A DNA stretch of 43,436 nt from a virus: IMG/VR virus record IMGVR_UViG_3300031578_000111, positions 1-43,436 of that record; one strand, given 5' to 3'. Every line of letters starts with the position of its first letter. Positions within the stretch are counted from its first letter, which is position 1. Below the pieces are notes generated by a model. That model saw only the letters and a list, made by a program, of their open reading frames with translations. It did no database searches and was not told the DNA's origin. Below, in pieces: positions 32,776 to 43,436 of the stretch. The position numbers and the translations under genes were made by a program.

Positions 32776-33558
32776 TTATTCAAACATAACTCTTTGGTCT
32801 GGATTCTTTCTTTTTTTTTGATCTTCATAAAGCCACCAATTAAACATTTCCTCACCACTATTCCATCTATCCACGCTTTTATTTCCCTTGGTTTTTCTAT
32901 TCTCATATAGTTTTTCAAATGCTTTTATAAATGCATTTACATATCTTGGATATTTTTCTGCTTCCATGATTCTGTGTTTATGAGTTGCAAATGGACAAAA
33001 TAAACATCCAATACGACTCCAACCTTTATCATAAAGATTACAATAAGGAATATTAAATTTATGAATAAATTCCCATACTTCTTCATTTGTCCAATCTATA
33101 ATGACATTTAGATATTGTTTTAATTTGTCTCTATAACAAGTTTCAAGCATTCTTCTTTTGGATCTTCTACAAGATTCATCCCATCTAATTCCTGTAATTA
33201 CAATTCTCCCCGAACCCCCTCTTTCTTTATATTCGCTACAACACCACCGTCTATGTCTCAGAGGAAATCCTCTTTTTGTCAGTTCTGTTAGGAAGGGTTT
33301 GACAGGATGGTCAATTTTTACATCAGGATGATATTTTTTTATGAAGTATATTAATTCTGGTGGATCAATAGTTGTATTATTGTAATGTGCATCATAGATA
33401 ACACCAGCCATATCAGCTAATTTTTTAATAACTATACTATCTTTGCCGCCACTAAAAGCGAGATAATAACCACCCGAAGGCTCAAACTGTTGTAATCTTT
33501 TAATAGCAATTTGAATCTTATTAATTGTTTCTCCAAATATAGTTTTTTCAATTAGCAT
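32776..33558 (-). CDS. PAPS-reductase-like ATP pyrophosphatase
   Basis: A 260-residue protein of the PAPS reductase / adenine-nucleotide alpha-hydrolase family. PP-loop YLAFSGGKDSIVI, then HRRWCCSEYK, ITGIRWDESCRRS, and a C-terminal CLFCPFATHKHRIMEAEKYP. The cysteines fit an Fe-S or zinc-binding variant as in DndC-like enzymes. The ATG at 33556-33558 is chosen over an upstream start inside the previous gene. Phage relatives are linked with sulfur chemistry or DNA/tRNA modification; no phosphorothioation partner is present, so its substrate is open. Confidence 0.85.
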   Translation of the reverse strand: MLIEKTIFGETINKIQIAIKRLQQFEPSGGYYLAFSGGKDSIVIKKLADMAGVIYDAHYNNTTIDPPELIYFIKKYHPDVKIDHPVKPFLTELTKRGFPLRHRRWCCSEYKERGGSGRIVITGIRWDESCRRSKRRMLETCYRDKLKQYLNVIIDWTNEEVWEFIHKFNIPYCNLYDKGWSRIGCLFCPFATHKHRIMEAEKYPRYVNAFIKAFEKLYENRKTKGNKSVDRWNSGEEMFNWWLYEDQKKRKNPDQRVMFE

Positions 33559-33560
33559 AT

Positions 33561-33923
33561 TTACCCCATCCTCTCCAACCAACTCAACTGCACCATCTCC
33601 TTCTTCCTCGCCTTCTCAGCCAGGCAATTCCTGTTCAGGTTTCTCGCCCTCAATAGTATGCTTATCCCCTTGTGCCTTAACTCCTTGTAACAACTCGTTC
33701 TTTCATCTTCGGTATCATACCAGTAATAACCACCTCTGGGAGTGCTGATAATAGGTGCGCCGGCATCGATTAGCTCACGAAGGATTATTCGGGTGCGCCG
33801 GTCGGTGATATTAGTACCACCCATAGCAAGGCACTCTTCGGTTATCTCTGCTTGAGTTCGCTTATTGCTATCGCCTACGTAGGATTTGATGATACGTAAT
33901 ATGATGGAATGGCAGTCATTCAT
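33561..33923 (-). CDS. Winged-helix regulator-like protein
   Basis: A 120-residue protein. Residues about 20-70 (RTQAEITEECLAMGGTNITDRRTRIILRELIDAG..IISTPRGGYYWYD) have a winged-helix pattern with a wing ending GGYYW, as in phage and plasmid replication regulators. It ends right before the PAPS-reductase-like start. DNA target unknown. Confidence 0.65.
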   Translation of the reverse strand: MNDCHSIILRIIKSYVGDSNKRTQAEITEECLAMGGTNITDRRTRIILRELIDAGAPIISTPRGGYYWYDTEDERTSCYKELRHKGISILLRARNLNRNCLAEKARKKEMVQLSWLERMG

Positions 33924-36508: not shown

Positions 36509-37669
36509 CTACTCGGTGTCTTTTGGTATGTCTTCGTCGGTAACTTCCTGATCTGTCTTAATCGCTACCAGTAAAGCATCATAAACCTCTGGATGGTCGC
36601 AAATATAAGTCTTAACTTGAGAAACTGCTATACCGTCATAAAAGATTTTATGTCTTGTTCCTATATCAATTATCTCTCCCCAAGTATTGACTTTATAGGC
36701 TCTTGCTACTGTTTCAACTTCGGCAAGTTTAGTCTGCTTTTCCTCAAAAATCTTTTTTACTTCTTCGGGAGTTCTCAAACTGGTTTTCCCTAATTCCCTT
36801 GCCGTTTTCAAATCAGCTTCTCGTTGATTAATTGCTTTATTTTCCTTGACCAAATCTTCTTTCTTTTTCTCTAACAGTGCCTCTCTTGCTTTGGCTCCTT
36901 CTTCAGTTTCTTCTACAATGACCGCCCCATCTTCCTTTGAATCGTAGACATGGTTTTTATCCTCTTCGGGTGCTTCAATCTCGTATTTCTTGTTTTGCCC
37001 AAAAAACAATTTTTTACCGTTCTGCAATTTAGAAAGGTCTTCTTCGGTAATATCAAGTTCCAATTGCAGGGTATAATGGATTTGTTTTTTCCCCTCGTTG
37101 TGGGTTTCCTTTGGTACCCTCCTGAGCTTAAAAGGTACGAAGGCTATCTGATCATTTAATAAGGCTCTGGCATAGTCAATCCCGCTGTTGATATCTACGA
37201 TGCTGTGATAACTTGACAGGTCAATCTGATATACCCCTCCAATCTTTATTCCCGGCATCATAAAAACTAAACTTGCTCTTTGCTGGCATTTACCACTGTC
37301 CAGTAATTCACAAGGACATTCCCGTTCTTCCATATTTTTCGTTTCCTCATTAAGCCTTAAAGCAGTTTCACCATCTCCCCGGCACTTCAAACCCATACTG
37401 CTTCCATACCATTTGTAGCATTGCGGGAATATTACTTCTGGATCGTTCATAGGAAAAGCAATATTCAATTCTTTTGGCTCATCTCCATAGAATTTTTTAA
37501 TCTCTGCCGGACAGACAAAGTAATCAGTCTCTGAAGGATATTCCTTCCCGGTCTTTTGTGATACTTTTTTGATTCCCAATCTAATCTTGCCTAACCTCGG
37601 CAACCTTCTAATCGCAGACAACCCGCTAATCCGGGTATATTTTTGTCTAAAAACATTCTCACCGTTCAT
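36509..37669 (-). CDS. 'Metal-binding / RDF-like' phage protein
   Basis: About 386 residues. The N-terminal part (GLSAIRRLPRLGKIRLGIKK..TGKEYPSETDYFVCP) matches the phage family often labelled hydrolase/metal-binding or recombination directionality factor. Cys residues (CYKWYGSSMGLKCRG, ECPC, GKC) suggest zinc binding. A helical middle (about 255-330) follows. It lies at the head of the DNA-metabolism genes. The second ATG (37667-37669), 8 bases after AGGAGG, is preferred to the first. No integrase is present, so a directionality role is doubtful; a general DNA-binding role is more likely. Confidence 0.7.
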   Translation of the reverse strand: MNGENVFRQKYTRISGLSAIRRLPRLGKIRLGIKKVSQKTGKEYPSETDYFVCPAEIKKFYGDEPKELNIAFPMNDPEVIFPQCYKWYGSSMGLKCRGDGETALRLNEETKNMEERECPCELLDSGKCQQRASLVFMMPGIKIGGVYQIDLSSYHSIVDINSGIDYARALLNDQIAFVPFKLRRVPKETHNEGKKQIHYTLQLELDITEEDLSKLQNGKKLFFGQNKKYEIEAPEEDKNHVYDSKEDGAVIVEETEEGAKAREALLEKKKEDLVKENKAINQREADLKTARELGKTSLRTPEEVKKIFEEKQTKLAEVETVARAYKVNTWGEIIDIGTRHKIFYDGIAVSQVKTYICDHPEVYDALLVAIKTDQEVTDEDIPKDTE

Positions 37670-37808
37670 TTCCATTTCCTCCTAATTTTTTATTTTCTTT
37701 TTGCCATAAATACTTCTCATAAGAAGTTGGCTTAAATAAGTTTTCATTACTGCGTCTTTTTCTATCTTCTAATACTTCCTGTTCTTCCTCTACGGTGTTA
37801 CCGTTCAT
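37659..37808 (-). CDS. Small hypothetical protein
   Basis: A 49-residue basic ORF (EVLEDRKRRSNENLFKP) starting at the ATG at 37806-37808; an in-frame ATG 12 codons upstream is possible but overlaps the neighbour more. Unrecognised. Confidence 0.5.
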   Translation of the reverse strand: MNGNTVEEEQEVLEDRKRRSNENLFKPTSYEKYLWQKENKKLGGNGNER

Positions 37809-41309: not shown

Positions 41310-41513
41310 ATTGCCTGACCTATAAAAGCCATTTTCCGATATTTTCCTGATTTATCTTAGAGCGTTAACCCATAACATCAGGTGTATTTAGGGGACTTGA
41401 CAGATTGCTGTGTACCTTCCTGTTCTACCCTCGACGGTATCTTGCCTTAGTGGACTAAGCTAAAGCTCAGACTTTCTTACCACCTACGTGAGTTATCCGA
41501 TAGGTCAGGCAAT
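41310..41513. repeat. 14-bp inverted repeat next to tmRNA-like RNA
   Basis: ATTGCCTGACCTAT (41310-41323) and ATAGGTCAGGCAAT (41500-41513) are perfect inverted copies about 176 bases apart. The second lies one base from the encoded CCA of the tmRNA-like RNA. In a minus-strand transcript they would close a domain directly behind the CCA, containing at least one more stem (CTGAGC/GCTTAG). Confidence 0.65.
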
Positions 41514-41514
41514 A

Positions 41515-41620
41515 TGGTGGAGGCGTCGGGAATCGAACCCGAGTGTAGCTTTTCGCACCTGTTAGGATTGCCCTACTCCTATTTAGCGGTGTTATTCTGC
41601 TATCGAAACCTTACGCCCCC
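41515..41620 (-). ncRNA. tmRNA-like tRNA domain (106 nt) without mRNA-like domain
   Basis: On the minus strand: 5' GGGGGCG pairs with CGCCTCC, with a G3-U wobble at the third pair, the alanyl-tRNA synthetase identity element kept in tmRNA. The D-loop region reads TAAGGTTTCGATAGC, matching the tmRNA consensus. The T-arm is TCGGG TTCGATT CCCGA, and the 3' end encodes ACCA. Between the halves are only about 58 nt (versus roughly 300 in tmRNA), foldable into UAGC/GCUA, CACC/GGUG and UAGGA/UCCUA stems. The tag frame and pseudoknots are absent. Its 5' end overlaps the phosphoesterase 3' end by 10 bases. It may be alanylated and bind SmpB as a decoy, or be a decayed tmRNA. Confidence 0.65.
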
Positions 41621-42528
41621 ATATTATCTACATACTTGCTTAAATCCCTAAATAATGGATTATATAAATCAGGGTAACCATTTTCAATAATCAAAAATCC
41701 TTGATTCCATAAGGGATAAGTATTTGTAGTCTGTATATAAGCTACCTTGTTTGAATCAAACAACCCCCCACTATTAATAACAACATATTTGCCACTCTCA
41801 CTAACAGACATATCGCAAAAGTGACCATGTGCAGAAATAATATTCATTTCGTATTTACCCGCTAAACGATAGGGGATCCTACCTTTGATCTGACTGTAGT
41901 TTTTGGGGTGACATATTCTCCATTTCTTATTACCCGAAGTTAATATAATATGATCCCGATTAGTAATCTGATATTTATCAATATTGTCAGTGAATAATCT
42001 AAATATATCTCTCAAATTAAGTTTACCTTTAAAAATTGCCATCAATCTATATATTTCATGATTACCCATATTGATAATTATTTCTTTAAAGTTATCTTCT
42101 AATATATGTAGTGCCTTCATGGTTTCCGTTCTCTCAAATGTAAAATTCCTTGCTTCTTCTTCCTCCGGTAATCTTTGTTCAAAATATGAGAAGGCATCTA
42201 CATTAAGTAAATCACCATCAATAATACAGGTATTAATCTTTTTTTCTTGTGAAACGTTTAGCATAATATTAAATAATTTTTTATCATGTAATGGGATATG
42301 AACGTCACAGATTATCATGCTTTTTTTTCGCGTAAGTTGTAAGGGTTCATATAAACGTTTTTCTTTTTCTATACAATATCGAATATTTTGCTTTATATCA
42401 TTTGCTTTTTCTTTAGGAAATTTACCACAATCATTGCAGAAATATCTTTTTTTATATTCCCCCTTATAAGTTGAATGTCCGTATGGCGATAAATCTATTG
42501 AGCCACAATAAGGACAATTATTTATCAA
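41611..42528 (-). CDS. Calcineurin-like metallophosphoesterase with N-terminal zinc ribbon
   Basis: A 305-residue protein. Residues 1-40 are a Cys4 zinc ribbon (CPYC..CNDC). The catalytic domain has DVH (75-77), GDLLN (105-109), GNHE (155-158) and a late AHGHFCD, the metal ligands of the calcineurin-like family. TTG start behind GGAGGAGG. The gene continues the leftward operon after the thioredoxin gene across the circle junction. Phage members are thought to act on nucleic acid ends or signalling nucleotides; substrate unknown. Its last codons overlap the tmRNA-like RNA. Confidence 0.85.
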   Translation of the reverse strand: MINNCPYCGSIDLSPYGHSTYKGEYKKRYFCNDCGKFPKEKANDIKQNIRYCIEKEKRLYEPLQLTRKKSMIICDVHIPLHDKKLFNIMLNVSQEKKINTCIIDGDLLNVDAFSYFEQRLPEEEEARNFTFERTETMKALHILEDNFKEIIINMGNHEIYRLMAIFKGKLNLRDIFRLFTDNIDKYQITNRDHIILTSGNKKWRICHPKNYSQIKGRIPYRLAGKYEMNIISAHGHFCDMSVSESGKYVVINSGGLFDSNKVAYIQTTNTYPLWNQGFLIIENGYPDLYNPLFRDLSKYVDNMGA

Positions 42529-42549
42529 ATATCCTCCTCCTTAATTATT

Positions 42550-43020
42550 TTAATATTCTTTTGGTGGTTCACAAACCCCACCATCACAATTATCTTTCTT
42601 CTTATCTTTTTGCTCTTTTTTTTCTTCCTTCAACATAAGCAATATCTTATCGTTGATAACGAGAAAAGGCGTAAATCCTATAATCCTGTCAACCTCTACT
42701 CCATTCTTATAGAAAATCAATACAGGCAACCCTCGAAGCGGTCTAAAATTGTTTAGGAATTTAGGGCTTTTATCTACATCTACCTTGACAAATTTAACTT
42801 TTCCTTTATGAAATATAGTCAACCTTTCAATGATAGGATCCATTAACTTACAGTATTTACACCAGGAAGCCCAGAAATCTATTACCACAGGCGCATCGCT
42901 TTTAAGCACCTCCGCCTCGTAATTATCGGCGTTCAATTCTATTATTTCTTCACATAAACCGAATATAGATAATAAACTGATTACACATAAAGTTAAGATG
43001 ATTGTTTTAAGTATTTTCAT
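42550..43020 (-). CDS. Exported thioredoxin-like protein (repeat copy)
   Basis: Same gene as 206-676, seen again through the terminal overlap. See that entry for domains and start. Confidence 0.88.
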   Translation of the reverse strand: MKILKTIILTLCVISLLSIFGLCEEIIELNADNYEAEVLKSDAPVVIDFWASWCKYCKLMDPIIERLTIFHKGKVKFVKVDVDKSPKFLNNFRPLRGLPVLIFYKNGVEVDRIIGFTPFLVINDKILLMLKEEKKEQKDKKKDNCDGGVCEPPKEY

Positions 43021-43030
43021 AATTACCCTT

Positions 43031-43436
43031 CTAAAAAGAAATTCGCAATGCCCCGTAAAATTCCTTATCGGTATTGTATCCGAAGGCAAGTTCGATATTA
43101 TCCCTTATCATATAGCCAACATCACCGCCAACAACAAACCTAAAATCCTCAAAGTCTTGTATCAGAAGTGATACATTAAGGCTGTAATCTTTTATGCTCA
43201 ATATTCCTTTAGAGATGATAATCCCGTAAGAATTATCAAAGGAATAATAACCGCCTGCCTTCAATTTTAGACTTGTTTTCTTAATCGCTATTTCTTCTTC
43301 GGCAAGAGTTGGTATAAGTTCTGACAATTTTCTATGCCGAGTTATGGTAATACCACTTTCTAAAGAAACAAGATTACCGTCTTTATCTTCATAGATAACT
43401 ATCTTTTCTTCTCCTTCACCCAAATTAATTAATATC
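43031..43436 (-). CDS. Spanin-like protein, C-terminal part (cut by window edge)
   Basis: The C-terminal part, about 135 codons, of the gene at 687-1457, truncated by the end of the window. Not a separate gene. Confidence 0.9.
   Translation of the reverse strand, partial: ILINLGEGEEKIVIYEDKDGNLVSLESGITITRHRKLSELIPTLAEEEIAIKKTSLKLKAGGYYSFDNSYGIIISKGILSIKDYSLNVSLLIQDFEDFRFVVGGDVGYMIRDNIELAFGYNTDKEFYGALRISF

Follow-up and report, generated by a model that had tools for sequence, protein, structure and literature searches.

A phage-borne tmRNA reduced to its tRNA-like domain and the viral RNA family to which it belongs

The locus and the architecture of the RNA

The window analyzed here, by which we mean the whole stretch of 43,436 nucleotides of the viral record IMGVR_UViG_3300031578_000111, is bounded by a perfect direct terminal repeat of 1092 bp (1-1092 and 42345-43436), and hence the contig is probably a complete genome, terminally redundant or circular, with 42,344 unique bases. 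Its capsid and terminase matches lie below 60% identity, and its AGGAGG-type ribosome-binding sites and 36% G+C presumably argue mildly against a Bacteroidota host. Scanning the whole window with cmscan recovered a sole over-threshold Rfam match, to the tmRNA model RF00023 at 41515-41620 on the minus strand (51.9 bits, E 1e-17; gathering cut-off 47 bits). An earlier note, made from the letters alone, had described at this position both tmRNA termini, the D-loop signature, the G3-U wobble, the T-arm and an encoded CCA within 106 nt, lacking the tag frame and pseudoknots, and had set this covariance model as a test. The alignment, which spans the model from end to end (positions 1-374) and has 59 nt where the model has a middle of ~326 positions, and direct reading of the sequence bear out that description.

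The features of the RNA and of its upstream flank are collected in Table 1. The D-loop reads GGUUUCGA, the P2 stem consists of four pairs (UAGC/GCUA), and the G3-U wobble pairs RNA positions 3 and 100 (41618 and 41521); the alanine identity elements G3-U70 and A73 are both present. There is no mRNA-like domain with a tag frame, the 59-nt middle being devoid of conserved codons; the pseudoknots PK1-PK4 are likewise absent, with no room for them in 106 nt, and the insert is instead built of nested hairpins. The anticodon arm of a canonical tRNA is also missing, its place being taken by the P2-like stem with its long insert. Over the window ARAGORN called neither a tRNA nor a tmRNA at 41515-41620, so the tmRNA-finder check proposed alongside the covariance model came out negative; this blindness explains how such genes could go unannotated. 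Without constraints, the fold of minimum energy (-34.6 kcal/mol, z -2.3) pairs the T-arm differently; by nearest-neighbour energies the tRNA-like fold (-30.5 kcal/mol) comes out 4 kcal/mol weaker. The argument for the fold therefore rests on covariation rather than on energy.

Table 1. Features of the RNA and its upstream flank, in window positions
Feature	Position	Strand	Evidence
tRNA-like-domain-only tmRNA, 106 nt including encoded CCA	41515..41620	-	RF00023 51.9 bits; model R1 56.7 bits
Acceptor stem 5' strand GGGGGCG, G3 = 41618	41614..41620	-	7/7 paired; pairs 5-7 co-vary (at least 134 distinct sequences)
tmRNA-type D-loop signature GGTTTCGA	41603..41610	-	direct reading
P2 stem 5' strand TAGC	41599..41602	-	P2 covariation in family: several pair types per position
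Second insert helix, 5' strand CACC	41588..41591	-	direct reading and fold
Insert capping helix, 5' strand TAGGA	41577..41581	-	paired changes in L012, L026/L029
Insert capping helix, 3' strand TCCTA	41563..41567	-	paired changes in L012, L026/L029
Second insert helix, 3' strand GGTG	41556..41559	-	direct reading and fold
P2 stem 3' strand GCTA	41546..41549	-	followed by linker CAC
Linker CAC between P2 and T-stem	41543-41545	-	NAC-type 3-nt linker in most members
T-arm TCGGG-TTCGATT-CCCGA	41526..41542	-	T-stem pairs 1-3 co-vary
Acceptor 3' strand CGCCTCC, discriminator A and encoded CCA	41515..41525	-	U partner of G3 = 41521; control scans
Metallophosphoesterase-like gene, upstream	41611..42528	-	PHROG 221, E 1.8e-13; Pfam Metallophos just under cut-off
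Possible promoter TTGAAA-17-TATAAT, ~39 nt upstream of RNA	41659..41687	-	11/12 consensus matches

The 3' end of the upstream metallophosphoesterase-like gene, stop codon included, extends over the initial 10 nt of the RNA. The possible promoter is not conserved in the relatives of the window RNA, and upstream of the family members at large we found neither a conserved promoter nor a clear enrichment of one, which makes the promoter evidence weak. Elsewhere, the phage codes for a protein with a PAPS-reductase domain (32776-33582, minus strand, E 7e-21) and for a Gp3-like recombination directionality factor domain (36509-37675, E 3e-46); no integrase was found in this phage.

Directly downstream of the RNA lies an element of ~198 nt (41313-41510, minus strand), which is closed by a perfect 11-bp stem, GCCTGACCTAT/ATAGGTCAGGC, and which by eye holds motifs resembling a reduced RNase P RNA, namely GAAAGTC, AGATAAAT and GGCTT before the closing stem; no Rfam model of RNase P matches it at E<=10. 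A tRNA occupies its place in the close relatives, the next element after the RNA being tRNA-Thr in L026/L029 and tRNA-Trp in L012. Two other phage contigs with tRNA arrays carry small class A RNase P RNAs, one of 207 nt (L083 10596-10802, 118.5 bits) and one of 198 nt (L089 1378-1575, 63.8 bits, below the cut-off of 100), and we regard these as candidate phage-encoded minimal RNase P RNAs; of the 20 matches to an RNase P pattern, 18 proved to be one conserved stretch that is not RNase P.

A phage family under covariation

Pattern scans over 2.9 million viral contigs yielded, once chance spans over tRNAs were removed (L021, L022, L039 and L040 among them), at least 175 loci with at least 134 distinct sequences that share a head-only plan, i.e. 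a tmRNA-type acceptor stem, D-loop signature, capped P2 stem and T-arm with no message. The tally counts loci with a fully paired acceptor stem and includes the window, two cultured Streptomyces phages and one bacterial copy, discussed below. Among the viral contigs, 46 stretches combined tmRNA ends with a spacing of 40-70 nt from D-loop to T-loop motif, at least 120 more had a shorter spacing, and a pattern with a TTCAA T-loop contributed 10. Constancy of the D- and T-loops is partly imposed by these patterns, and since TTCGA was itself part of the search, that of the D-loop within the family is not independent evidence. Counted to the discriminator base, members range from 59 to 108 nt, the shortest being the tRNA-like domain and the P2 hairpin alone; most fall in a class of 77-81 nt that bears a small CC-loop-GG hairpin within P2. 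The CCA is encoded at 54 of the 175 loci listed. In L004, L010 and L041 ARAGORN calls a 343-nt tmRNA with a 30-residue tag, which looks spurious and in whose 3' end a head-only RNA of 85 nt is contained.

The closest relatives match the window at 96.7% identity (L026/L029, over 41509-41630), 97.3% (L027, 41515-41626) and 90.7% (L012, 41515-41620), and in them identity ends within about a dozen bases of the RNA termini and the flanks differ. This match of the RNA against divergent flanks indicates that it is conserved as a separate unit. The capping helix of the insert reads TGGGA with TCCCA in L012, and TGGGA with TTCCA, by means of a G-U pair, in L026/L029. By contrast, the triplet runs GCA GAA TAA and GCT AAA TAG, which the earlier note had raised as minimal resume-and-stop signals, are not conserved: the latter becomes GCT AAA TGG in L012, L026 and L029, and both are absent in L008 and L044, so they are best put down to chance. 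In L002 (6905-6990) an RNA in the same place, next to a neighbour protein that is 86% identical, has exchanged its T-loop for a short GAGA-type cap, and its acceptor stem carries compensatory changes with G3-U70 kept. Together with the broken T-stem of L012, this indicates that the elbow is not always kept.

A search of related phages for compensatory changes in the acceptor and T stems had been proposed, and such changes are present. Among the long-form members, a set of 35 distinct sequences exceeds every one of 2000 shuffles at pairs 5-7 of the acceptor stem, 1-3 of the T-stem and 1-7 of P2, and shifting the P2 partner by 1-3 bases lowers pairing from 88% to 34-43%. Similarly, from an alignment of 25 sequences of the ~79-nt class, RNAalifold recovers the same fold unaided, with double changes in 16 of 23 pairs; the named structure, in which 15 of 22 pairs show double changes, is paired in 97.8% of cells as against 72.1% in shuffles, and the covariation score is 0.647 as against 0.129. 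Independent drift of the two halves, named in the earlier note as a refuting outcome, is not seen, as both halves co-vary. A covariance model (R1), trained on copies of the ~79-nt class from other phages with the window outside the training set, recognizes the window RNA at 56.7 bits (E 5.5e-10) and scores all other family members at no less than 47.9 bits apart from L012, whose T-stem is broken (25.6 bits), whereas the tRNAs and full tmRNAs of the test set score at most 38.8 bits. Judged by this covariation, the support for the tRNA-like fold of the family is decisive, and the window RNA is not a relic.

We then examined the alanine signal by means of control scans of viral contigs in which the other letters of the pattern were fixed. 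With U70 the pattern found 46 stretches, and with G3-C70 none; an A3-U70 control gave 13 stretches, none of which passed the acceptor and P2 criteria, these reading as fortuitous matches across ordinary tRNAs or the ends of tmRNAs. As neither the C70 nor the A3 control holds true members, the alanine identity pair appears to be kept under selection, and G3-U70 looks obligatory in the family. Covariation and these controls together favour the earlier description of the RNA as a free-standing, putatively alanylatable tRNA-like molecule without a message.

The long-form pattern, run over the genomes of 84,980 prokaryote species, gave 22 matches with one true copy (L054 1414-1521, plus strand), a head-only tmRNA that a Candidatus Uhrbacteria genome carries besides a full-length one; the other 21 run across tRNAs or full tmRNAs or are partial matches of unclear nature. 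Model R1, applied to ~1,380 genomes of four phyla behind strict prefilters that may miss weak copies, again returned that copy, together with a single match of borderline score (45.3 bits). As the all-genome scan addressed the long form, phage-specificity of the short form is drawn from the R1 search. These results suggest that the head-only family is nearly all viral, with almost no copies in bacterial genomes. No full-length tmRNA was found in the viral carriers checked, and no SmpB gene in 42 carrier phages, so the partner, if any, must be the SmpB of the host. Unannotated members occur in the Streptomyces phages Shaeky (42932-43010, within a tRNA array and 4 nt from tRNA-Phe) and pSt2308 (33356-33433); the annotated tmRNAs of Kumao and BillNye are 407 and 296 nt long.

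Proposed function and its rivals

From sequence comparison it is established that the tRNA-like elements are kept, that the message is absent and that a large phage family shares this state. That we are dealing with a chance match or a misread tRNA would fit the silence of ARAGORN and an energy-optimal fold unlike that of a tRNA, yet it is refuted by the at least 134 distinct co-varying relatives and by the gap in R1 scores noted above, quite apart from the E-value of 1e-17 to tmRNA, and we give it virtually no credence. A leftover attachment site or tmRNA fragment, stranded by integration into ssrA, might be expected given that tmRNA genes are common integration sites (PMC10865867), and a tyrosine integrase is indeed present in 9 of 51 carriers. 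Against this, no tyrosine integrase match came from the window phage or from 41 further carriers, none of the 51, the window included, has a resolvase-type recombinase, and attachment fragments usually keep the 3' part only, whereas here both halves and P2 co-vary; covariation thus disfavours this origin, which we hold to be very improbable.

We posit that the window RNA is a transcribed and processed head-only tmRNA which acts as a chargeable decoy of the host tmRNA, a proposal that we consider moderately probable; the decoy or modulator role offered by the earlier note is the best available reading. The RNA would be co-transcribed with the upstream gene, or a weak local promoter would drive it, and RNase P and tRNA 3' processing would mature it from phage transcripts. 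The host alanyl-tRNA synthetase (AlaRS) would charge it via G3-U70, and host SmpB and EF-Tu would bring the charged RNA into stalled ribosomes; it may in this way compete with the host tmRNA for SmpB, AlaRS, EF-Tu and the stalled ribosomes themselves (for general background on trans-translation see PMC8012679). Having replaced the host tmRNA in the ribosome, it may even accept the nascent chain; with no resume codon it would add no degradation tag, tagging would be lost from the infected cell, and its stalled complexes would be left to other release routes. A pure sponge for SmpB would not predict the strict G3-U70, given that the DS6A-like precedent molecule, described below, inhibits irrespective of whether it can be charged; from this pairing of strict identity with charge-independent inhibition we infer a natural role for charging beyond SmpB binding. 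The lost T-loop of L002, the broken T-stem of L012 and the lack of a conserved promoter weigh against the decoy.

The strict G3-U70 also fits a molecule that needs charging and ribosome entry for another end, namely a tag-less rescue RNA which, charged with alanine, enters with host SmpB and frees stalled ribosomes untagged to the benefit of the phage, without being mainly an inhibitor. Organelles offer parallels, in that the tmRNA of mitochondria is found alongside SmpB although it apparently has no tag frame, which is missing as well from two plastid tmRNAs of ~65 bp; however, full trans-translation may be impossible without the stop codon of the tag (PMC11915505), and the sole phage-type molecule tested inhibits tmRNA, which leaves such a rescue role rather unlikely. 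Less likely still is that the RNA serves in anti-defence or as nuclease bait, an anticodon-less molecule absorbing a toxin or defence protein that acts on tRNA acceptor ends or on tmRNA. The phage-specific distribution would suit such a bait, as would the 32 of 175 listed loci with a same-strand phage tRNA within 1.5 kb, some at a distance of 1-9 nt; the remaining 143 have no nearby tRNA gene, and a general bait needs no specific alanine identity.

Returning to the chargeable decoy, a broader version holds that phages of many lineages generally turn charged head-only tmRNAs against host trans-translation, as alanine-charged competitors inside the ribosome and not as mere SmpB sponges, with the 77-81 nt RNAs and their conserved CC-loop-GG hairpin cap as a distinct class; we would place about even weight on it. 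More generally, the family suggests a widespread phage means of jamming or bypassing the host rescue of stalled ribosomes. Tagging by tmRNA is nearly universal among bacteria, and how phages handle it has been little explored; at least 134 versions with a strict alanine signal make a phage block of trans-translation a testable question, and the members in the cultured phages Shaeky and pSt2308 make the test feasible now. Furthermore, model R1 and the pattern offer annotators a means of detecting a gene that ARAGORN overlooks or labels wrongly.

Comparison with known systems

Relative to the standard bacterial tmRNA (RF00023), the window RNA shares the G3-U70 acceptor stem, D-loop signature, start of P2, T-arm and CCA, but the family, at 59-108 nt as against ~360 nt, has neither tag reading frame nor pseudoknots. 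The permuted two-piece tmRNA (RF04321, with cyanophage and pelagiphage versions) likewise parts the tRNA-like from the mRNA-like piece and also occurs in phages (PMC9004378), the tmRNAs of S-CRM01 and S-SSM7 being permuted by sequence order. The window RNA differs in running from 5' half to 3' half as one 106-nt unit closed by the P2 hairpin; no separate coding piece was found for it, and the permuted model reaches 19.6 bits on it against a cut-off of 47, matching the 3' half only. Tag-less tmRNAs of mitochondria and plastids also keep the tRNA-like domain in the absence of a tag frame (PMC11915505), but these are organellar genes and not phage ones, the mitochondrial forms usually being permuted and served by a nuclear-encoded SmpB.

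The nearest precedent is Mycobacterium phage DS6A, whose tmRNA is cut to little beyond the tRNA-like domain (Mao et al. 2009, as relayed in PMC4131195 and PMC11915505). According to these accounts, a DS6A-like molecule strongly inhibits the endogenous tmRNA in E. coli, perhaps by titrating SmpB (PMC4131195, PMC11915505), and does so irrespective of whether it can be charged (PMC4131195). Compared by its published description, the DS6A RNA resembles ours in being phage-borne and consisting of a tRNA-like domain with little else, but is a single case, whereas the window RNA has 106 nt, a structured insert and a large co-varying family. A 2025 tmRNA database of 97,179 sequences includes 79 phage tmRNAs and nine of standard form without a tag frame (PMC11915505), and in the open-access literature searched a phage-wide head-only family is not reported. 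The head-only phage case itself is known from DS6A, while the size of the family, its covariation, its alanine constraint and its phage-specificity appear to be new.
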